Source of the DNA: an uncultured Pelagibacteraceae bacterium
Lineage (GTDB): Bacteria; Pseudomonadota; Alphaproteobacteria; Pelagibacterales; Pelagibacteraceae
Length of the DNA stretch: 36,961 bases
Reading direction: 5' to 3'
Assembly: GCA_902578525.1 (NCBI GenBank)
Contig: CACHDJ010000011.1
Location: 1-36,961 of the forward strand
Shown: positions 2,463 to 15,097 of the stretch, in pieces
Layout: every line of letters begins with the position of its first letter
Numbering within the stretch: position 1 is the first letter of the stretch
Notes under the pieces: model-generated
The model's database searches: none
What the model saw: only the letters and a program-made list of their open reading frames with translations
Told to the model about the DNA's origin: nothing
Program-made: the position numbers and the translations under genes

Positions 2463-3555
2463 ACTTAAAGTTAAAACTTTATCAGATAATTATTCTATTA
2501 TAATAGGTTCAAACTTAGTTAAAGATTTGCCTAAATATTTTAATGAAAATTCAATCAATTATGAAAAATGTCTTTTGGTTATTGATAAAAGAATTCCAAA
2601 AAAAATGATCTTTAAAATTAGTAAATCATTAAATAAAAGAAAAGTTTATAAATTTCTATTTAATGCAAATGAAAAAAATAAAAATCAAAAAAGTGTAAAT
2701 AATATTTTAAAATTTTTACTTAATAAAAACTTTTCTAGACAAGACTGTTTGATAACTGTTGGAGGTGGAATTACAGGTGATGTTGGAGGCTTTGCAGCAA
2801 GTTTATTCAAAAGAGGAATGCAATTTATTAACATACCTACAACTTTATTATCACAGGTAGACTCTTCAATAGGTGGCAAGACAGGGATCAATACTAAGGA
2901 AGGGAAAAATCTTATTGGAAGTTTTTATCAGCCAAAAGTTGTAATTAGTGATACAGATTTTTTAAAATCATTACCTAGAAGAGAAATTATTTGTGGATAT
3001 GGTGAAATTTTTAAACATTCACTTATATTAAATAAAACTTTTTATAAGTACTTAAATAAGAATGCTAAAAGTATTTTAAATTTAAAATCACCTTTTATGG
3101 AAAGAGCAATTTTTGAAAGCTGTAAAATTAAAAAATTAATTGTTGAAAAGGATGAAAAAGAAAAAGGAATTAGAAAAATACTAAATCTTGGTCATACTTT
3201 TGCACACGCTTATGAAGCGGCACTAGGATATTCAAGAAAATTAAATCATGGAGAAGCTGTAATTCTTGGAATAAATACATCGCTGAAATTTAGTTTAGAT
3301 AAAAAAGTTATGAAATTTAAAGAATATAAATTAATTACAGATCACATTATAAAAATGAGACTTCCTTTTGATATTAAAAATTATTTTTCTTTGAAAAAAT
3401 TAAATGTAATCTTATCTTTTATGATTAAAGACAAAAAAAATACTTCAAATAAAATTAACTTAATTATATTGAAAAAAATTGGTACTGCTATTATTGATAA
3501 TCAATATGATATTTTAAAAGTTCGAAAATTTTTAAAAAAAGAATTAGCTAATTAG
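2449..3555 (+). CDS. aroB: 3-dehydroquinate synthase
   Basis: AroB converts 3-deoxy-D-arabino-heptulosonate 7-phosphate to 3-dehydroquinate, using NAD+ and a divalent metal, as the second step of the shikimate pathway. The 368-residue length is typical. NAD-binding motif GGGITGDVGGFAAS is at 105-118 and the substrate loop TTLLSQVDSSIGGKTG at 131-146. The metal ligands are visible as E186 (GYGEIFKH), H249 (LGHTFAHA) and H267 (LNHGEA). The start overlaps the end of aroK by 14 nt. Its 3' end overlaps the convergent bolA-like gene by 12 nt, leaving no room for an intrinsic terminator. Nothing unusual is seen in the protein apart from a Lys/Asn-rich composition in keeping with the genome. Confidence 0.97.
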   Translation: MKPIKLKVKTLSDNYSIIIGSNLVKDLPKYFNENSINYEKCLLVIDKRIPKKMIFKISKSLNKRKVYKFLFNANEKNKNQKSVNNILKFLLNKNFSRQDCLITVGGGITGDVGGFAASLFKRGMQFINIPTTLLSQVDSSIGGKTGINTKEGKNLIGSFYQPKVVISDTDFLKSLPRREIICGYGEIFKHSLILNKTFYKYLNKNAKSILNLKSPFMERAIFESCKIKKLIVEKDEKEKGIRKILNLGHTFAHAYEAALGYSRKLNHGEAVILGINTSLKFSLDKKVMKFKEYKLITDHIIKMRLPFDIKNYFSLKKLNVILSFMIKDKKNTSNKINLIILKKIGTAIIDNQYDILKVRKFLKKELAN

Positions 3556-3804
3556 AATTTGTAAAGAATGAATATGTTCTTTAAGTTCTACATCAAGAAT
3601 TTTATATATTTTTTTATTACTTTCTACTCTATTTAATTTACTAAGTTCAGCTGAATTAATTGAGAGTTTTAAATGATATTTCCCCTCTTTATTACCTGGA
3701 TGATTTTTATGAAGAAAAGTTTTATCCTCAATATTAATTTTTTCAATTAAAATTTGATCTTGTAATTTTTTTTTTACGATTGCAATTAATTTATTTATAT
3801 TCAT
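3544..3804 (-). CDS. BolA-family protein
   Basis: An 86-residue protein with the BolA fold signature: a variable loop with His residues (FLHKNHPGN, 30-38), the KYHLKLSIN beta strand at about 42-50, and the invariant C-terminal His in the HSLQI motif (H79). BolA proteins commonly pair with monothiol glutaredoxins to bind or deliver [2Fe-2S] clusters; H79 and a loop residue are the family's cluster ligands. No glutaredoxin gene is in the window. It converges on aroB with a 12-nt overlap. It diverges from the J-domain gene with only 19 bp between the two start codons, so promoter elements must lie partly inside coding sequence. From memory, BolA next to the J-protein/cobS/cobT group recurs in alphaproteobacteria, which would suggest a functional link. 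The subfamily is uncertain. Confidence 0.85.
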   Translation of the reverse strand: MNINKLIAIVKKKLQDQILIEKINIEDKTFLHKNHPGNKEGKYHLKLSINSAELSKLNRVESNKKIYKILDVELKEHIHSLQILIS

Positions 3805-3823
3805 AAATATTACATACTATATC

Positions 3824-4369
3824 ATGAAAAATATCTGTGACTGGAATAATTGTAAAAAAATTGGAGAATATAAGGCACCTGTTGAGAAAGATAATAGCAA
3901 AAAATATAGAATGCTTTGTTTGGAACATGTAAAAGAATTTAATAAAAATTGGAATTATTTTGCTGGTATGAATGATAGTCAAGTTATGAATTTTTTAAAA
4001 TCTGATATGATTTGGCACAAACCTACCCAAAGTTTTAGTTCCTCAGATAATTTTTTTAAAGTTCTTTGGAACAATACTTTAAGAGATGAATTAGATAAGG
4101 ATAAAATTAATGGAGATTATGATCATATGCGTCAATTTAAGTTTAATCATAAAGATATTAAAGCCTTCGGTATATTGGGGATTTCTATAGGTTTAAAATG
4201 GGAGAAAATACAAGACAAGTTCAAATTGCTTGTCAAAAAATTTCACCCAGATATAAATGCTGGTAATAAAAAATACGAAGAAAAATTAAAACTAATCACG
4301 TTAGCTTATACACAACTAAAAAAGACATATAGAGAAAAAATTGACACCAAATCTAAACATACAACCTGA
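3824..4369 (+). CDS. J-domain protein with N-terminal Cys/His zinc-finger-like domain
   Basis: A 181-residue protein with a C-terminal J domain, the module that stimulates DnaK/Hsp70 ATPase. The diagnostic HPD tripeptide is H141-P142-D143 in KKFHPDIN, preceded by the amphipathic helix that normally contacts DnaK (about 123-138). The N-terminus is not DnaJ-like: C5-x4-C10 and C32-x2-H35 form a potential metal site, followed by a conserved-looking [13 protein letters not shown] segment. There is no Gly/Phe linker, no CxxCxGxG zinc domain and no client-binding domain, so this is a specialised J-protein (type III) rather than DnaJ itself. The 3' end overlaps cobS by 29 nt, and cobS and cobT follow in the same transcript. 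I infer that it recruits Hsp70 to, or assembles, the CobS/CobT complex. The metal site is inferred only from residue spacing. Confidence 0.87.
4331..4343 (+). promoter_or_regulatory. Weak ribosome site and TTG start of cobS inside the upstream gene
   Basis: AGAG at 4331-4334 lies six bases before a TTG at 4341-4343. The cobS frame has a stop at 4317-4319 and no ATG or GTG until codon 25 (4413). The 24 residues before that ATG resemble the normal CobS N-terminus ([16 protein letters not shown]), so TTG is the most probable start. Translation would then begin 29 nt inside the J-protein gene and be coupled to it. Confidence 0.5.
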
Positions 4370-5315
4370 TATTAAAGTTTCATTAAAACAAAGTTTTGGA
4401 ATTGATTCTGAAATGGAAGTAGATGCTTTTTCAAAAAAGAGCGAATATGTTCCAGAATTAGATAAAAGCTACAAGTTTGATAGAGATACTACATTAGCGA
4501 TCATATCTGGGTTTGCTTATAACAAAAGAGTTTTAGTTCAAGGATACCACGGAACTGGAAAATCTACTCATATAGAACAAATTGCGGCAAGATTAAACTG
4601 GCCTTGTATTCGTGTTAACTTAGACAGTCATGTAAGTAGAATAGATTTAATTGGTAAAGACGCAATTGTTCTTAAAGATGGAAAACAGATAACTCAATTT
4701 AATGAAGGAATTTTACCTTGGTCTATTCAAAATCCTGTAGCTCTTGTTTTTGACGAGTATGATGCTGGAAGGCCAGATGTAATGTTTGTTATTCAAAGGG
4801 TTTTAGAATCTGAAGGCAGCTTTACGTTACTAGATAAAAACAAAATTATTAAACAAAATAAATTTTTTAGATTATTTGCTACATCTAATACTATAGGTCT
4901 TGGCGATACAACTGGTCTTTATCACGGGACACAGCAAATAAATCAAGGGCAGATGGATAGATGGAATATTGTAACAACTCTAAATTATCTTAGTCTTGAA
5001 AAAGAACTAGATATAATTTTAGCTAAAAATAAAAATTTCAATAATGCCAAAGGTAAAGATAAAGTAGTAAATATGATTAAAGTAGCTTCTTTGACAAGAA
5101 AAGGTTTTATTGCAGGAGATATTTCAACTGTAATGAGTCCAAGAACAGTTATGCATTGGGCAGAAAATTCAGAGATTTTTAAAGATATTGGTTATGCTTT
5201 TAGGGTAACTTTTCTTAATAAATGTGATGATATAGAAAAAAATACTATCGCAGAATATTACCAAAGATGTTTTGGAGAAGAATTACCAGAATCACTGGTA
5301 AATATTCAAATCTAA
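4341..5315 (+). CDS. cobS: CobS-like AAA+ ATPase (cobaltochelatase small-subunit family)
   Basis: CobS is a MoxR-type AAA+ ATPase. In aerobic cobalamin synthesis it forms a ring with CobT and drives cobalt insertion by CobN into hydrogenobyrinic acid a,c-diamide. The 324-residue protein matches the family throughout: Walker [10 protein letters not shown] (68-76), the [15 protein letters not shown] segment (93-107), Walker B ALVFDEYD (134-141), sensor-1 ATSN (180-183), [14 protein letters not shown] (186-199) and [12 protein letters not shown] near 265. The TTG start gives the usual N-terminal length. It sits between the J-protein gene (29-nt overlap) and cobT (no spacer). No cobN or other cobalamin gene is in the window, and SAR11 bacteria are generally regarded as unable to make B12 de novo. 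The family is firm, but the chelatase role here is doubtful; remodelling another metal enzyme is an alternative. Confidence 0.92.
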
Positions 5316-7115
5316 ATGAGTAACAAAGAAACTAATTTAAAAGAGAAATTCAGAGTTGCTTTAACATCAACAGCAAAAGTTATTGCAGATGATTTTTCTA
5401 TTAATGATAAATTTGCTGAAAACAAAAAATTAAAAGAGTCAAATCCTTTTGAAATTGATAATTTATCAAATCCAAGTGACTTCATTAGGTTGCGAGCTGA
5501 GTCAGACTCAGAGGCTTTAAAAAGAAGGTTTTCTAATGAAACTATATATAAAAAAAATTTACCTTCTAATCCCTCATCAAGATCTCTTTATAATATTGCT
5601 GAAAAAATTAGATACGAGCAGTTAGGAGGAAAAATGCTTAAAGGGATAGAAAAAAATTTTAGTGAAAATTATGTACAAATAATTGATAGAAAAAGAAAAG
5701 ATCAATTAAAAACAAAAGAGGATGTGTCAGTTGTAGAAGCTTTTGAGCTTTATATGCTTAAAAATTTTCATCATATAAAATTAAACCCTCTAGCTTCAAA
5801 AATGTTAAATTTCTGGGAAAAAGACTTTAAAAAATCGATAGATAAACACAAAAAATTTTTACAGGAAAATTTAGAAAATCAAGACAATTACAATTTAAAA
5901 TTTTCTGAAATTTTAGCTGAAATGGATATATTTCAAAGTGAAGAAGCTGATGAAAAAAAAGAGGAAAACCCAGATCAAGGTCAAGATAATCCCTCAAATG
6001 ATGAACAAGATAGAGAAACTGAGGATGATAAAAATCAAGATAATGAACAAGAAACTCATGCAACCTTAGATGCAGATTATAGTGTTGACGAATTCAATTT
6101 AGATGAGCAACTTTTAGATAGTGAGGCTGAAGATCAAAATTCAGAACAAATAATTCAAAAAAATATTGAAAATATTAATCTTGATTACAAAATTTTTACT
6201 ACTCAATATGATGAAGTCACAAAAGCTGAAAATTTAGAAAATCAAGAGGAAGTAACAAAACTAAGAAAAAACTTAGACCAACAATTAATAGGCTTTCAGG
6301 ATGTAATAACTAAACTTGCAAATAAACTTCAAAGACAATTACTTGCTAAACAAAACAGGTCTTGGGAATTTGATTTAGAAGAGGGATTGCTTGATAGCTC
6401 TAAACTACCTAGAATTATAATGGATCCTTATAATTCTCTGTCTTTTAAAAAAGAAAAAGATTTAGAATTTAAAGATACTGTAGTGACTTTATTGATAGAT
6501 AACTCTGGTTCAATGAGAGGTAGACCAATTACTATTGCAGCAATTTGTGCAGATATATTGTCTAGAACTTTAGAAAGATGTTCAGTTAAAGTTGAAATTT
6601 TAGGTTTTACAACAAAAAACTGGAAAGGTGGTAACAGTAGAGAATTATGGAATAAAAATTCAAAACCCAAAACGCCTGGAAGATTAAATGATTTAAGACA
6701 TATAATTTATAAAAGTGCGGACACTCACTGGCGCCAAGCAAAAAAAAATTTAGGTCTTATGCTTAAAGAGGGTTTACTTAAAGAAAATATAGATGGAGAA
6801 GCAATCTCATGGGCTTATAATAGAATTAAGAAAAGGAAAGAAGAAAGAAAAATATTAATGGTTATTTCAGATGGAGCTCCAGTAGACGACTCTACCCTTT
6901 CGGTTAATTCTGGTGACTTTTTAGAAAAACATCTTAAAAAAATAGTTAAATTTATAGAAAATAAAACTGAAATAGAAGTTTTAGCAATTGGCATTGGCCA
7001 TGATGTTAGTAGATATTATGATAAGGCAATAAAAATTACAGATGTAAACGAGTTAGGTGATGTAATGATATCTCAATTAAGTTCCTTATTTGAAACAAAA
7101 AAAAAAATGCACTAA
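5316..7115 (+). CDS. cobT: CobT-like VWA-domain protein (cobaltochelatase family)
   Basis: CobT is the VWA-domain partner of the CobS AAA+ ring. The 599-residue protein has an N-terminal helical region (about 1-205), a highly acidic Glu/Asp/Gln/Asn-rich linker (about 208-250), and a C-terminal VWA domain. The metal-ion-dependent adhesion site motif DNSGS is at 395-399, and a later Asp lies in the [10 protein letters not shown] segment near 517-526. This order matches authentic CobT. The ATG directly follows the cobS TAA with no spacer, so the two should be made in fixed ratio. The end overlaps the convergent regB-like gene by 4 nt, with CTAA holding both stops. MoxR-VWA pairs often act as metal-cofactor insertion machines. 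Without CobN its target in this organism is unknown. Confidence 0.92.
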
Positions 7116-8392
7116 ATATTAAATAAATCTTTGTTATTCCATTTAATTATAATTTCAGCTCCACTTCTCGTTTTAGAATTTCTACAGTTAATAGATGCAA
7201 AATTTTTTTCTAAGAGTGTTTTTCCAATAAATAATCCAAGTCCTAGACCCGTTTTTGATTGTTCATTTACATAATCTGATTTTAAATAAGGTTCTCCAAT
7301 TTTTGACAAAATATCTCTAGAAAAACCCTCACCATCATCCTCAATTATAATTTCTGTTATTAAACTATCGCTCTTTAAGTTTATATAAACTGTTTTTTTT
7401 GAAAATTTATTAGCATTGCCAATAAAATTTCTTAAGCCATAAACAATTTCAATGGACTTTGATATTTTCTTTTTATTAGAGTACTGTTCATAATTTAAAA
7501 CAAAATTTTTTTTACTTGTTTCCTTAAAGGAAGTAATAATTTCTGTTAAATAATCTTTAATAGTAAGATCTTTATCTATAAAATCATCCTCTACCGAAGG
7601 GTTAAGACTTAAGCGTTTTAAGATTTGATTACATCTTTCTACTTGGCTGGATAGTAATTCTATATCCTTTTGAATTTCTTTTTTTCCTTTAAATTGCTTT
7701 AATAAGTCTTGAGTAATTATTTTAATTGTAGATAAAGGTGTACCCAAAGAATGAGCAGCAGCAGCAGCCTGGCCACCGAGAGATAGGAGTTCGTGCTCTG
7801 TTGACATAACTTGCTCCATTTTCGCTAAAGCCTCTTTTCTCAGTCGGGATTGTGTTCCAAACGATATTGCAAAATAATTAAGGAAAATTAAAGCAATTAT
7901 TAAGGCAACAGGGATTGAATAATAATAATATGGACTAACATGAAAATGATCACCAATTGGAGAGGGTAAATTTTTAGAATAGAATGTAAGAATAATAATT
8001 ACAGTTATGGTAATTGAGACTAATAAAAGATTGGTTCTAAAACTTAAGTTTGACGATGAAAAAACACTCGGTATCAATAAAAAAACAGCAAAAGGATTTA
8101 CAACACCTCCAGTTAAATAAAGTAAAGCACCTAATTGTAATATATCTATCAATAAAAATATGAACGCTGACCTATCCGATAATTGTGTCTTACCATAAAT
8201 AAAAATTAAATATAAATTGCTTAAAACACCAAAAAAAATAATTACATTTGATGTAATAAAATCAAAATTAAAGTTTAAAAAAAGGTATACAAAATTTACT
8301 GATATTAATTGTCCAATTATTCCTATCCATCTTAAACTTATATAAGTAGATTTTTTAAAGAAATGATATTCTGAAGTTTTAAAAAACTTCAT
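7112..8392 (-). CDS. regB: RegB/PrrB-like redox-sensing histidine kinase
   Basis: A 426-residue inner-membrane sensor kinase. About six hydrophobic segments fill residues 20-178 and include the RegB quinone-site motif GGVVNPF (95-101). The phosphoacceptor is H214 in [10 protein letters not shown], followed by the redox-active Cys position of RegB, C254 in QVERCNQIL. The ATPase domain has N-box residues N322 and N326, G1 EDDGEGF (351-357) and G2 TGLGLGL (381-387). RegB/PrrB normally responds to quinone and oxygen state by phosphorylating RegA/PrrA; no response regulator is in the window. One departure stands out: the residue after the phosphoacceptor is Ser, where RegB and most HisKA kinases have Glu or Asp. 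The gene starts 2 nt after the gyrB stop, so it is probably cotranscribed with it. It converges on cobT. Confidence 0.9.
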
Positions 8393-10573: not shown

Positions 10574-11770
10574 CTAAATTTTAATATGTGCAAACCACTT
10601 TGTTTTTTTTAAAATCTTTTTTTCTTTCAAAAAAATCTCTTTTTTATGGTTCCAAGCAAAAAGAAATGTGTAGTCTGGTATATTCTTTTTATAATGGTCA
10701 ACTGAAACAATTGGAATATGTGTACCTGGTGAAAAAGTGTTTATTTTATTTGGCGTAGTATCACATATAAAATCAATATGCTTATAATTTATTCCACAAT
10801 AATTTAATATTGTAGTGCTTTTTGATGTTGCAGCGTAACCTGCAATATTTTTTCCTTTTTTTAATATATTGGATATTTTTCTTTTTAATTTTTTTTTCGA
10901 AATTTCACATTTTTTTTTAAAGTTAAGACATCCTTTGATTGAGTCAATTTTTTTTTTCTTTTCACTTTTTAATAATCTTAATACGTTTTTATTTATTTTA
11001 TGTTTACCTAGTCTGCCAATAACATAACGCATCGACCCACCATGGGTTTTTTGTGGAATTGCATTTATCAATTCAAGGTTAAATAATCTAAATACTTTTT
11101 TAACAGAACTCACAGAAAACATAAATATATGTTCATCATAAATTTGATCATATGATGTTTTTTTAAACATTGATCCTAAGTATGGTTCTTCAAATATAAA
11201 AAGGCCATTATCATTTAATAGATAATCAACGCCCTTGATAAGATCAGTTAAATTTGGAACATGACAAATGACATTGGCTGCAGATAAAATATCTGTATTA
11301 TTTTTTAAATTTTTAATTTTTTTAACGTTTTTGAGGGTAAAAAAACAATTCATGGTTTTAATACCTTTTGCTTTTGATACTTTCGCTACGTTAGAAGATG
11401 GTTCAATCCCTAAGGTTTTAATCTTACTATTCTTAAAATTACTCAAAAAAGTTCCATCATTAGATCCAATTTCAATTAAATTATTGTTCTTTTTTAAGTA
11501 ATTTTTTTTTATCCAATTCGCATATTTCTTAAAATGTTTAATCATTCCCTTAGAGCTTCCTGTAAAAAAAGGATAGTTTTTATTAAACATTAATTTTGGC
11601 TTAGGATGATTGTTTAATTGAAACAAAGAAATTTTATTTGAGAAACCAACTTCCATCTCAAAAAAATATTCTTTTTTAAAATACTTCTTTTTTAAAAATC
11701 CATTTGCAATTGGCATTTTCCCAAATGTCATAAATGGTTTTATTTTTTTTTTTGTTATCTTACAAATCAT
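10574..11770 (-). CDS. SAM-dependent sugar C-methyltransferase-like protein
   Basis: A 398-residue protein with the layout of the NovU/TylC3-type C-methyltransferases: a short N-terminal domain (about 1-60), a central SAM-binding Rossmann domain with motif I NLIEIGSNDGTF (97-108) and FIFEEPYLGSMF near 200, and a C-terminal domain containing GYAATSKSTTILNYCGI (about 310-326). Such enzymes methylate carbon 3 of NDP-4-keto-deoxysugars. In the usual family the N-terminal domain binds zinc through two CxxC pairs. Here only C3 remains: CKIT replaces the first pair and FSNKI stands where the second would be, so the zinc site seems lost. It directly abuts the epimerase gene upstream (no spacer). The substrate is not determined; O-methylation or a deoxysugar of surface glycan are options. 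Confidence 0.8.
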   Translation of the reverse strand: MICKITKKKIKPFMTFGKMPIANGFLKKKYFKKEYFFEMEVGFSNKISLFQLNNHPKPKLMFNKNYPFFTGSSKGMIKHFKKYANWIKKNYLKKNNNLIEIGSNDGTFLSNFKNSKIKTLGIEPSSNVAKVSKAKGIKTMNCFFTLKNVKKIKNLKNNTDILSAANVICHVPNLTDLIKGVDYLLNDNGLFIFEEPYLGSMFKKTSYDQIYDEHIFMFSVSSVKKVFRLFNLELINAIPQKTHGGSMRYVIGRLGKHKINKNVLRLLKSEKKKKIDSIKGCLNFKKKCEISKKKLKRKISNILKKGKNIAGYAATSKSTTILNYCGINYKHIDFICDTTPNKINTFSPGTHIPIVSVDHYKKNIPDYTFLFAWNHKKEIFLKEKKILKKTKWFAHIKI

Positions 11771-12694
11771 TCAAATATTTTTTAACAGTTCTATTGTTTC
11801 TTTAATATCTTTTTCAATATTTGATTTTAAAACTAAACCTTCATTATTCAATTTTTTTTGACTTACATGGTAAGAAAGTTGATTCATAATTGCAGAAGTG
11901 ACAAATTTAACTTTAATTTTTTTTTTATACTTTTTAATTTTTTTTAGTATTTGTTTTACTGTGAAGTTTCCTGACAAAGCATTAAAAATATCATTTTTAA
12001 AAAAATCATTTTCAATCGAAAATTTAAATACCTTAAAAGCATCTTTGAGAGATAAATATGGCCTGTACTGATTCAATGCTGTTTTATATACATTTATGTC
12101 TTCATTAATTGCAGCATTAAAACAAAACTTATTAACTGCAGTATGAAATCTTATACCTTTAGATACCCCTGAAATAGTCCCAAAACGAAAAGTATTATAA
12201 GTTAAAAATTTTGTTTCTTTTTTTAACATTTTTTCTTCTATCAATTTTATATCTGCATATGGAGATTGAGGTTTTAAATACTTTTCTTCGCAATTTTCAT
12301 CTACAATTTTTGTCTGCTTGCCGTAAACACTCGTTGAAGAAATATGAATTAATTTAGCTTTTCTTTTTTTGCAGAAATTTATAATTGTTCTCAAACACTG
12401 AATATTATTCTTATACATTTTATCTTTTTTTCCAAAACTTTTTTCAGCATTTGTCATTGAAGCTAAATGAATAACATAATCAATATTTTTTAAACTGTCT
12501 AAACTTTTTGGATCATTTAAATCTTTTATTAAAAAATTTAAATTATTTTTTTTTTTTGTGTCAAAAATTGAATAAAATCTATTTGACTCAAGATTATCAA
12601 CTATGAAGGTCTTTTTTATTTTCTTAATTTTATGTACGTGCTCGGCTAAATAAGAGCCTATATGACCACAACAGCCAGTAATTAATAAGTTCAT
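11771..12694 (-). CDS. NAD-dependent sugar epimerase/dehydratase (extended SDR)
   Basis: A 307-residue extended short-chain dehydrogenase/reductase. The cofactor motif TGCCGHIG is at 6-13, an acidic residue for NAD ribose follows (D33 in IVDN), LASMTNAEKS is near 78, and the catalytic set is S122 region / Y146-x3-K150 (YADIK), with an HISSTSVYG segment at 117-125. Members act on nucleotide sugars as 4-epimerases, 4,6-dehydratases or reductases; the exact reaction cannot be read from the sequence. The start overlaps the end of the cupin gene by 1 nt, and the methyltransferase gene follows directly, so the three form one transcription unit. That setting points to deoxysugar synthesis for a surface polysaccharide. 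Composition is Lys/Asn-rich like the neighbouring genes. Confidence 0.85.
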   Translation of the reverse strand: MNLLITGCCGHIGSYLAEHVHKIKKIKKTFIVDNLESNRFYSIFDTKKKNNLNFLIKDLNDPKSLDSLKNIDYVIHLASMTNAEKSFGKKDKMYKNNIQCLRTIINFCKKRKAKLIHISSTSVYGKQTKIVDENCEEKYLKPQSPYADIKLIEEKMLKKETKFLTYNTFRFGTISGVSKGIRFHTAVNKFCFNAAINEDINVYKTALNQYRPYLSLKDAFKVFKFSIENDFFKNDIFNALSGNFTVKQILKKIKKYKKKIKVKFVTSAIMNQLSYHVSQKKLNNEGLVLKSNIEKDIKETIELLKNI

Positions 12695-13089
12695 TATTTT
12701 TTTTTAATTATTCTTAAAAATTGATTATAATTTTCTATATAGTCACTGTATTCATACTCTCTATCACAGAAAACCATTAGAATACTATTATTTGTTTTAA
12801 ATCTTATTTTACACCAAGTTTTAGATTTTAGTAAAATTCCTTTTTTTTTTTTATAATTAATATTTGTTTTATATTTTTTATGTTTATCCTCAATTTCAAT
12901 TTCCATTACACCATAAATAGGGACCAAAAATTGTTTACATTTAAAATGCGCATGATCTCCACGTGTAAAATTTTTATTCCCATAAATTAAAAAAATTCTT
13001 TTAGTTTTAAAGGGAATATCGGAATTTAAAGAAAAGGGTATTAATGTTCCACTTTTTTTAGTAAATTTTTTAAATACATATTTTTTCAT
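12694..13089 (-). CDS. FdtA/QdtA-like sugar 3,4-ketoisomerase (WxcM-like cupin)
   Basis: A 131-residue single-domain cupin. The signature RGDHAH (43-48) followed by CKQFLVPIYGVMEIEIED matches the RmlC-like 3,4-ketoisomerases FdtA and QdtA and the WxcM C-terminal family. These convert dTDP-4-keto-6-deoxy-glucose to the 3-keto sugar, using the His of the motif in the active site. It is the first gene of the cupin-epimerase-methyltransferase unit and lies 86 bp downstream of the tRNA-Ser on the same strand. No aminotransferase (the usual next step to Fuc3N or Qui3N) and no dTDP-glucose synthase or dehydratase is in the window, so precursors must come from elsewhere, or this is a relative with another substrate. 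Confidence 0.8.
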   Translation of the reverse strand: MKKYVFKKFTKKSGTLIPFSLNSDIPFKTKRIFLIYGNKNFTRGDHAHFKCKQFLVPIYGVMEIEIEDKHKKYKTNINYKKKKGILLKSKTWCKIRFKTNNSILMVFCDREYEYSDYIENYNQFLRIIKKK

Positions 13090-13175
13090 AAAATAATTTT
13101 TTTATATATAGATTACAAAATATAACTACTATTTTTTTACTTAATATTTAAATAGTAAATTTATTATATTTCATC

Positions 13176-13264
13176 TGGCGGAGAGAGTGGGATTCGAACC
13201 CACGGTACCTTAACAGTACACACACTTTCCAAGCGTGCGCTTTAAACCACTCAGCCATCTCTCC
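13176..13264 (-). tRNA. tRNA-Ser (anticodon GGA)
   Basis: On the minus strand the sequence folds as a class II tRNA: acceptor stem GGAGAGA/TCTCTCC, D-arm with TGAGTGGTTTAAAGC, anticodon stem CACGC/GTGTG with loop TTGGAAA (anticodon GGA, reading UCC and UCU), a long variable arm with GTAC/GTACC-type pairing typical of serine, and T-arm GTGGGTTCGAATCCCAC. The discriminator is G, and the 3' CCA is encoded at 13176-13178. The 5' end is 5 nt from the stop codon of the GT17 gene, so it may be processed from that transcript or use a promoter inside that gene. No copy of the tRNA 3' end was seen elsewhere in the window. Confidence 0.97.
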
Positions 13265-13269
13265 AAAAT

Positions 13270-14076
13270 TTATAATATGTATAATTTATATTTTTCATGA
13301 TTAGACACAATGTAGTCTGGAAAACTTTGATTAATTGAGACTTTTTCATATTTATGACCTCTTTCAAAAAGGTCGACCCTTTCTTCGATCTTTTTTTTAA
13401 TTATATTTATATTTGAGTATCTTTCTCCACTAAATTCTGAATGAGCAAAAGTTTTTAACTTAAGTGATATTTTTTCTGGTTCCATGACATTATTAAAATG
13501 CCAACCTCCATTATGGAAAATTTCAATATTTTTTTCTTTATCAATTCTATAAAAATTATATTTAAGATTTTTGGATCTTACTTTTTGGCGCATAAAATCA
13601 ATAGATTTTAGGTTTTTTTTTTTACAAGCTCTAGTTCCCTCCCATGGAGTTTCATGAGGATTAAATAGATTGAATTTGTAGTTAAAACATTTTTGAAAGA
13701 AAATGCCATATTTATTTTTTAATTCAAAATTTTTTAAAATTTTTGGATTAGGTATCTCATCAGGATCAGAAAAAAATATAAAGTCATCTGGATCTGCAAA
13801 GGATGTTTTTTTTAATAAAAATTCTCTTTGTATAGCTTGATTTTCCCATAAATTATTATTTTTTGGGAAGGGTTCTTCCATCACCTCATATCTAATTTTT
13901 TTATCATTAAATAATTTATGATTAAAATTTAATTTTTTTTCAAAGTTTCTATGATCATACTTTGACTCACATATAACAAAACTATCTACGTAGTCCTTGA
14001 GAATATTAAATCTTAAATCAAAGATAAAATTATTATCAAAAAAAGTTATACAATCTATAATCTTATTTTTTTTCAT
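13270..14076 (-). CDS. Family 17-like glycosyltransferase
   Basis: A 268-residue protein resembling glycosyltransferase family 17, whose best known member is the eukaryotic beta-1,4-mannosyl-glycoprotein GlcNAc-transferase. Supporting features are the opening IIDCITFFDN, the DYVDSFVICESKYDHR segment (28-43), an acidic metal/nucleotide-sugar site FFSDPDEIPNP (101-111, a D-x-D variant) and HNGGWHFNN near 188. Bacterial relatives occur in polysaccharide loci, where donor and acceptor are generally unknown. There is no signal peptide or membrane segment, so it is probably cytosolic. The start overlaps the end of the Gfo/Idh gene by 14 nt, showing coupling. The stop is 5 nt from the tRNA-Ser. It probably adds a sugar to a lipid-linked surface glycan, by context. 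Confidence 0.78.
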   Translation of the reverse strand: MKKNKIIDCITFFDNNFIFDLRFNILKDYVDSFVICESKYDHRNFEKKLNFNHKLFNDKKIRYEVMEEPFPKNNNLWENQAIQREFLLKKTSFADPDDFIFFSDPDEIPNPKILKNFELKNKYGIFFQKCFNYKFNLFNPHETPWEGTRACKKKNLKSIDFMRQKVRSKNLKYNFYRIDKEKNIEIFHNGGWHFNNVMEPEKISLKLKTFAHSEFSGERYSNINIIKKKIEERVDLFERGHKYEKVSINQSFPDYIVSNHEKYKLYIL

Positions 14077-15097
14077 TTTTCCAATAATCTAATATTTTTG
14101 AATTAATCAAAATTTCTTTTCTAGTCATACCGGGGTAACTTGCTTCAATTTTTTTATTTATAATATCATTGCTTATATTTTCAATTCCCAAAGAATATAT
14201 GTTATTACTATTGCTGAAATTGAATATTTCTTCCTTTTCGCAAAATATTTTTATTTTTCCTTTCTCAGGATTCCACGTATTTTCAATAATTATTTTTCCT
14301 TTTTCACCAAAAATAGTTGTTTTACTCCCAATATTTTCTGAGAAAGAAACCTGTAATTTTACTTTAAACATATTATCAAAAGCAATATCTACAGTACTAT
14401 GAACATCAATATCTTCCAATTCATAAGTCTTATTTAAGTTTTGAAACTTAAAATTTTCAAGATCTATATTTTTTACTAATCCAGCAATAAGTAAAGCCAT
14501 TGATAAAGTATGTGAACCTAAATCAAAAATAACTCCACCACCTAATTCTTTATTAAAAATTCTTTTTTTTTTATCTATTTTCTTTTTAAAGAAACCGAAA
14601 AATTTTTTTTTATCAGTTAAATTCATTCCAAGATTAGAGTTCATTGAAATGACTTTGCCAATTTTGTTTTTTTTAATTAAATCAACTACTTTTACAATTT
14701 GAGGATGATATCTAAACATGAAACTTTCTCCAAAAAAAATATTTTTAAGAGATGGACTAAGAAAAACTTCTTCAGCTTGCTTAAAGTCAATAAAAGCTGG
14801 TTTTTCTACTAAAATATTTTTATTAAATTCAATACATTTTAATATCCATTTCTGATGCAGAGAATTTGGTAAAGCAATATATACAATATCTATGTCTTTA
14901 TTTTCTATAAGGCTTTGATAATCACTATAAGAATTTTCAGACGAAATATTATAATCTTTTTTAAACTGGTCTAGTTTTTTTTTAGTATTACTAGCAATTG
15001 CAAACAACTTAGCATTTTTTGTTAATTTTAGACATTTGGCAATTTCTTGGGCTATATTTCCTAAGCCAATAATTCCCCAATTAATGTTATTATTCAT
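14063..15097 (-). CDS. Gfo/Idh/MocA-family oxidoreductase
   Basis: A 344-residue NAD(P)-dependent oxidoreductase. The N-terminal Rossmann fold has GIIGLGNIA (8-16), a conserved IALPNSLHQK segment (74-83) and the family's catalytic EKP (98-100 in NILVEKPAF). The C-terminal half has the GGGVIFDLGSH region near 190, typical of the GFO_IDH_MocA C-terminal domain. Members reduce or oxidise sugars, nucleotide sugars or inositols; the substrate cannot be assigned here. It is the first gene of a short minus-strand unit with the GT17-like gene (14-nt overlap) and diverges from the GT61 gene across only 23 bp. A role in making a modified sugar for surface glycan is inferred from context. Confidence 0.87.
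   Translation of the reverse strand: MNNNINWGIIGLGNIAQEIAKCLKLTKNAKLFAIASNTKKKLDQFKKDYNISSENSYSDYQSLIENKDIDIVYIALPNSLHQKWILKCIEFNKNILVEKPAFIDFKQAEEVFLSPSLKNIFFGESFMFRYHPQIVKVVDLIKKNKIGKVISMNSNLGMNLTDKKKFFGFFKKKIDKKKRIFNKELGGGVIFDLGSHTLSMALLIAGLVKNIDLENFKFQNLNKTYELEDIDVHSTVDIAFDNMFKVKLQVSFSENIGSKTTIFGEKGKIIIENTWNPEKGKIKIFCEKEEIFNFSNSNNIYSLGIENISNDIINKKIEASYPGMTRKEILINSKILDYWKNEKK

Follow-up and report, generated by a model that had tools for sequence, protein, structure and literature searches.

Conserved CobS and CobT in CobN-less SAR11 and other Alphaproteobacteria: a probable CobN-independent client for an AAA+/VWA pair

Why would a marine bacterium with a small genome keep CobS and CobT, if no gene for CobN, the third protein of the cobaltochelatase CobNST, accompanies them? 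The question is raised by a 36,961-nucleotide stretch of DNA (hereafter the window; assembly GCA_902578525.1, contig CACHDJ010000011.1, positions 1 to 36,961 of the forward strand) from an uncultured Pelagibacteraceae bacterium, in which genes encoding the AAA+ ATPase CobS (4341-5315, TTG start) and the von Willebrand A (VWA) protein CobT (5316-7115) lie end to end on the forward strand. The reading that we favor, with a probability of about 60%, is that the pair (CobST) is an AAA+/VWA motor that acts, over a wide range of bacteria, on some client besides CobN, and that bacteria making vitamin B12 reuse it for CobN. CobS and CobT are listed among key components of B12 synthesis in the available part of PMC2667541, and B12-related categories are enriched among the genes required for growth of Rhodobacter sphaeroides according to the accessible sections of PMC5513736. 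The openly licensed literature yielded no report of CobST occurring without CobN, either in SAR11 or elsewhere in the Alphaproteobacteria, subscription papers lying mostly outside that search.

The host is, by sequence similarity, a SAR11 bacterium: the best named relatives, 80 out of at least 583, are Pelagibacterales records, and among those listed CobS is 94% identical to that of SAG-MED49 and 90% identical to that of Ca. Pelagibacter ubique HTCC9565. A preliminary description of this DNA had reported neither cobN nor any other cob gene in the window, had proposed a search of the full genome for cobN, and had taken SAR11 to lack the aerobic B12 pathway. The absence of CobN was supported by the searches made here. 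No further cob gene was recognized in the window when its other open reading frames were read by eye, without a profile scan, and PF02514, which covers CobN and the large subunits of Mg-chelatase, had no match in the window genome (34 contigs totaling 1.008 Mb, with a completeness of 81.6%). CobT was found in 55 of the 58 Pelagibacterales genomes, and in none of the 58 was there a match to CobN (TIGR02257, E<=0.001) or to the corrin synthesis marker CbiC/CobH (PF02570). That CobN is hidden in the unassembled part of the window genome is unlikely, because the 39 genomes of the order that are at least 90% complete all contain CobT (in G420 as a fragment only) and give no match to CobN or CbiC. 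Neither a cobN with a near-complete pathway in the same genome nor loss of the module from most B12-negative relatives, the two outcomes that had been named as adverse to another target, was encountered.

These searches bear on the idea that CobST pairs with a very divergent CobN-like subunit and still metallates a tetrapyrrole. Structure entries hold CobN, CobS and CobT together, we know of no other proven CobST partner, and extreme divergence could let such a subunit escape both PF02514 and TIGR02257; against this, neither CobN nor CbiC had a match in any of the 58 genomes of the order and the CobN search was positive in 5 of 14 control genomes, which leads us to regard a hidden subunit of this kind as distinctly improbable.

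The two proteins of the window appear intact. CobS passes the equivalog cut-off of TIGR01650 (573.3 vs 558.55 bits), and CobT matches PF11775 (316 bits) and PF06213 (115.6 bits), each above its cut-off. Residues G68 and H70-S75 of CobS, together with D138-E139, are identical in all 58 CobS compared (one CobS alignment, A2, took 29 of 58 sequences); we take residues 68-75 (4542-4565, forward strand) to be the Walker A motif and D138-E139 to be Walker B. Likewise, D395, N396, S397, G398 and S399 are invariant across all 61 CobT compared, and residues 395-399 (D-x-S-x-S; 6498-6512, forward strand) presumably form the metal ion-dependent adhesion site (MIDAS). Judged against proteins from 24 CobN-containing genomes, the window CobS retains 124 of 131 invariant positions and the window CobT 133 of 143. 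Median ratios of nonsynonymous to synonymous substitution (dN/dS) among SAR11 orthologues, taken from 54 or 55 sequences per gene and only from pairs with 0.2<dS<1.2, were 0.028 for CobS and 0.18 for CobT, compared with 0.13 for a neighboring J-domain protein and 0.46 for a neighboring BolA-family protein. CobS is thus under very strong purifying selection, and the dN/dS values and conserved positions indicate that the function of the pair is maintained in SAR11. Consequently, the view that CobST merely survives from a B12 pathway since lost, as the missing CobN and CbiC might suggest, was rejected as scarcely credible: dN/dS is low for both proteins, the catalytic motifs are conserved, and 55 of 58 genomes, small as they are, still contain CobT.

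CobST without CobN is a class-wide pattern rather than an oddity of SAR11. CobT was found in 295 of 385 alphaproteobacterial genomes, and a strong CobN match (E<1e-130, a class that includes some fragments; 135 lie above the profile cut-off) in 139: CobT occurs with strong CobN in 136 genomes and without it in 159, CobN alone in three (draft assemblies with a completeness of 78 to 93%), and neither in 87. Nineteen weaker CobN-family matches, mostly near 1e-90, were taken as BchH-like and scored as CobN-negative, although a few may be pieces of CobN (G287, for instance, has a genus mate in which CobN is complete); 17 of the nineteen fall among the 159 genomes with CobT but no strong CobN, the remaining 142 having no match at all. 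In the 314 genomes with a completeness of 90% or more and a contamination of 5% or less, CobT was found in 251 and any CobN-family match in 135, so that at least 116 CobT genomes are without one. CobS was found in 55 of 56 CobT-containing genomes searched, and 12 genomes lacking CobT yielded a single 18-bit match. Since 280 of the 295 genomes have one CobT match and only 15 have two, most B12 makers would need a single pair for both tasks. In 239 genomes of the phylum, CobT was present in 62 of 64 alphaproteobacteria vs 3 of 175 others, the three lying below the cut-off (the division into 64 and 175 was deduced from listing order, and 154 rows fall outside the CobT matches listed); these three non-alphaproteobacterial genomes (G506, G595 and G609) encode a CobT-like VWA protein. 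None of the five control genomes with CobN has CobT, and the control Caulobacter vibrioides, a laboratory organism, has a CobT match and no CobN match; it was also positive as a control for the B12-binding domain PF02310.

A tree of 61 CobT sequences requires 14 changes of CobN state, of which at least 8 are forced by starred branches; the tree came from a quick search without bootstrap, in which 31 of 58 inner branches are open and long branches meet. Together with the 159 CobT genomes without strong CobN and the purifying selection described above, these changes make a CobN-independent job for CobST very probable. The preliminary description had argued that an intact AAA+/VWA pair implies another target, which the same selection and genome counts now make likely, and it had pointed to the retention of the pair in a streamlined genome; this retention in the absence of CobN is upheld, and the module is not peculiar to SAR11.

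By homology to the solved CobST and CobNST complexes and to NorQD, CobS would form an ATPase ring and CobT would be the MIDAS-bearing adaptor through which this ring remodels its client. The client would be a protein other than CobN, encoded elsewhere in the chromosome, and the most likely action on it would be the insertion or reloading of a metal or another cofactor; bacteria that make B12 would use this pair, of which they usually have one copy, to drive CobN as well, and a J-protein might hold clients together with DnaK. The conserved neighbors of CobST in 61 clustered loci across the class comprise aroK, aroB, a CNNM-family protein, L28, a phytase-like protein and MeaB, besides two families that are unassigned or regulator-like, and no convincing client was recognized among them. 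In one locus (L113, 7954-10072), CobS and CobT are separated by two genes, one encoding a C-5 cytosine methylase and the other assigned to no Pfam family.

The presence of MeaB among these neighbors raises the possibility that CobST in bacteria that do not make B12 loads or repairs the cofactor of B12-dependent enzymes such as methylmalonyl-CoA mutase. In the sister family of the window's family, designated f174, where CobN and CbiC are absent too, MeaB adjoins CobT in three of three loci, and in an f174 locus (L144, 3537-6662) MeaB (363 bits, cut-off 329) and methylmalonyl-CoA mutase (1198 bits, cut-off 876) are convergent and directly beyond CobT. The B12-binding domain PF02310 scored above cut-off in 32 of the 58 genomes of the order, namely in 30 of 30 from f174 and in 2 of 28 from the window's family, where both genes sit in frames with a CxxxCxxC motif that, read by eye, look like radical S-adenosylmethionine enzymes. 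TIGR02504, the profile for class II ribonucleotide reductase, matched 57 of the 58 genomes, above cut-off in 29, all of them from f174 (29 of 30 with NrdJ). Its match in the window genome was considered as a sign of hidden B12 use and discarded, being the class I NrdA (938.6 bits, cut-off 620) beside NrdB (566.8 bits, cut-off 237); the class was fixed by a follow-up scan in this genome alone, one of the 28 of its family, TIGR02504 being below cut-off throughout the family.

Across the class, 10 of 61 loci (six without and four with CobN) have MeaB at a distance of 1.4-5.9 kb from CobT, and no MeaB is clustered near CobT in the other 51. CobST also persists in the window's family, despite 26 of its 28 genomes being without an above-cut-off PF02310 match and the reductase of the window genome being of class I. 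Given that f174 uses B12 and the window's family shows no clear use, while both hold CobST, the pair is kept under either condition, so that reloading of B12 enzymes, promising as the f174 arrangement looked, was set aside as the general role of CobST and is in our judgment quite unlikely to account for it.

Several observations weigh against a widespread CobN-independent client. The absence of B12 synthesis was scored by profile searches with only two markers, CobN and CbiC/CobH, and the absence of CobN from the window genome is weakened by the completeness of just 81.6%. The window CobT falls under the equivalog cut-off of TIGR01651 (620.8 vs 759.05 bits, residues 10-594). When positions invariant in one group only were counted, CobS gave equal numbers (15 in CobN-containing and 15 in CobN-less genomes), and CobT gave 32 vs 14, a split equaled or exceeded in 8 of 300 label shuffles that ignored relatedness; part of CobT may therefore be kept for CobN, and the pattern in the two proteins would fit a motor common to two clients with an adaptor more constrained beside CobN. 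In the CobT tree, shuffled CobN labels gave a mean of 19 changes and reached 14 or fewer in 6 of 500 trials, so that the label is less scattered than in shuffles and CobN losses are partly inherited. Six more of the 28 genomes in the window's family have PF02310 matches below the cut-off (E 1.1e-6 to 6e-4), and the finding of no clear B12-dependent enzyme in this family comes from the PF02310 and ribonucleotide reductase tests, B12 transport and other B12 enzymes not having been searched. Finally, ten scanned neighbors of relocated or detached CobST offered no shared client candidate (a DNA methylase, AlaS, an aldehyde dehydrogenase, a cation efflux protein, a nucleotidyl transferase, a chorismate mutase, a nitroreductase, an esterase, a methyltransferase and one more without a family).

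The cobST genes belong to a conserved arrangement. Profile matches, coordinates and the overlapping or abutting gene ends confirmed the description of a BolA-family gene divergent from a series encoding a J-domain protein, CobS and CobT. The BolA-family gene occupies 3544-3804 on the reverse strand (PF01722, E 1.7e-12, 47.9 bits vs a cut-off of 25.7), and 19 bases, read directly (3805-3823), separate its start codon from that of the 181-residue J-protein (3824-4369, forward strand; PF00226, E 5.1e-9, residues 115-168). The J-protein gene overlaps cobS by 29 bases, given the TTG start of the latter, and cobS and cobT abut with a gap of 0, a spacing from which we infer that the three genes share one transcript. 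Of 55 named Pelagibacterales loci, 54 carry these four genes with order and strands unchanged, the other one being a contig end that lacks BolA, and a profile search recovered the arrangement, BolA included, in three of three f174 loci. Across the class (40 main loci hand-picked from the listed places and 20 from low-scoring genomes, inspected to about 7 kb either way; two locus sets left out 1 and 5 loci, respectively, in which the full motif was wanting), the four genes are found together, no more than about 7 kb apart, in 45 of 61 loci. The comparison of synteny with and without B12 synthesis that had been suggested, run here with CobN as the marker, gave the four genes together in 16 of 20 CobN-containing loci vs 17 of 20 CobN-less loci. 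This arrangement is no chance association.

The J-protein carries its HPD motif at 4244-4252 (K138, H141, P142 and D143 are invariant in 45 aligned rows) and, ahead of the J-domain, an N-terminal domain (3827-4045, forward strand) in which C5, C10, C32, H35 and N40 are invariant in three alignments (one of these, A1, took 38 of 48 usable sequences, 2 of 50 having failed the motif search). The C-x4-C and C-x2-H pairs suggest a putative metal site. This domain had no significant match among PDB or Pfam sequences (best E 0.21 and 0.019, respectively). The AlphaFold2 model shows a hairpin followed by a helix in this domain, with a mean predicted local distance difference test (pLDDT) score of 70, and of 76 for the whole protein; a treble-clef-like arrangement is only a reading of this secondary structure. 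Foldseek with the N-domain model (pLDDT 70) returned no match at E<=0.001, and Foldseek and VIA-align with the J-protein models returned J-domain matches, or nothing significant for the N-domain. The C-terminal domain of HscB was not reported in the protein, Pfam at E<=0.01 giving the DnaJ family alone. The N-domain looks like a signature specific to Alphaproteobacteria, found in 63 of 64 of them vs 0 of 175 other Pseudomonadota in the phylum sample (the same deduced division, with 156 rows outside the matches listed), and it is kept even in genomes of 0.9 Mb such as G068.

Gene order might be taken to mean that BolA, the J-protein, CobS and CobT form one machine for an Fe-S or metal cofactor, and the preliminary description had gone as far as proposing an Hsp70- and Fe-S-based one, which is not established, resting as it does on this conserved order. 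The order is kept in Pelagibacterales, f174 and most class loci in the numbers given above, and the J N-domain, present in 334 of the 385 alphaproteobacteria, occurs in 283 of the 295 genomes with CobT. However, it also occurs in 51 of the 90 genomes without CobT, and among 15 such loci retrieved, 14 have neither BolA nor CobS adjoining it (two of them, L121 and L123, start no more than 0.6 kb from where the contig ends); the remaining one, L122, is a short contig that carries BolA and, at its end, CobS. BolA, moreover, is less constrained by dN/dS than any of the other three genes, and looking out to about 7 kb located it in 46 of 61 class loci and not in the other 15. A single four-protein machine is therefore unlikely. 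Because the J-protein is kept without CobT, and mostly without BolA or CobS beside it, it probably has a job of its own, and would be an ancient operon neighbor rather than an obligate CobST subunit.

Taken jointly, these elements allow a broader proposal, to which we would give somewhat less than even odds: CobST would be an ancestral cofactor-insertion machine specific to Alphaproteobacteria, with a client that is probably important and with a secondary role on CobN, and the J-protein, with its zinc-site-like N-domain and a gene that is often in one operon with cobST, would be a second class-specific chaperone that outlives CobST in small genomes. If the 159 of 295 CobT genomes are truly without strong CobN, the use of CobS and CobT as markers of B12 synthesis, among whose key components they are listed in the part of PMC2667541 available, would miscount B12 makers, and most of all in the ocean. 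The favored reading of a CobN-independent client likewise points to an unrecognized cofactor or remodeling machine in SAR11 and, by the matches in the control genome, in Caulobacter vibrioides.

Around the module, the window has an aroK-aroB pair, the divergent BolA gene, the J-protein, CobS and CobT, and then a convergent gene for a RegB/PrrB-like redox histidine kinase (7112-8392; NF033792, 377 bits), which shares 4 bases with the end of cobT, with gyrB, recognized by eye, beyond it. Between gyrB and lepA (10574-15097) lies a block of apparently sugar- or surface-related genes, also judged by eye.

Of the known systems, the cobaltochelatase CobNST is matched by the window CobS above its equivalog cut-off and by the PF06213 and PF11775 domains of the window CobT, and solved CobS and CobT chains, with CobN in some entries, match the window proteins along their length; it differs in that no CobN or CbiC was found in the order to which the window belongs and in that the window CobT is below the TIGR01651 cut-off. 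The MoxR-type pairs NorQD, RavA-ViaA and CbbQO share with the window an AAA+ (AAA_5) gene adjoining a VWA gene with a kept MIDAS, CbbQ being a distant match to CobS (E 4.9e-6) and midasin a nearer one (E 4.9e-25), whereas CobST has no recognized client gene alongside and is nearly confined to Alphaproteobacteria in the phylum sample. NorQD is reported, in the available text of PMC13036017, to twist its partner, letting metal in or driving metal insertion. ChlI/ChlD pairs without a large subunit, whose function is given as not known in the sections of PMC9227772 at hand, are similarly AAA+/VWA chelatase motors without ChlH or CobN, but belong to another motor family, while CobST spans much of one class and comes with a J-protein gene. 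Viruses hold CobS and CobT-like genes together (PMC8651126 and PMC11288001, as far as available), and viral cobST has been proposed, in the accessible part of PMC8651126, to hijack the CobN of the host; viral CobS is distant, with all 448 phage records that match being below 60% identity (26.5-33.2% among 25 matches listed), and viral CobT matches come from 26 records, with about half of the protein covered among 15 matches listed. Finally, the window J-protein has the HPD J-domain in common with the proteins that share only this domain with DnaJ, presumably those termed class C, and is set apart from them by its Alphaproteobacteria-specific C-x4-C/C-x2-H N-domain, which has no significant match in Pfam or PDB.

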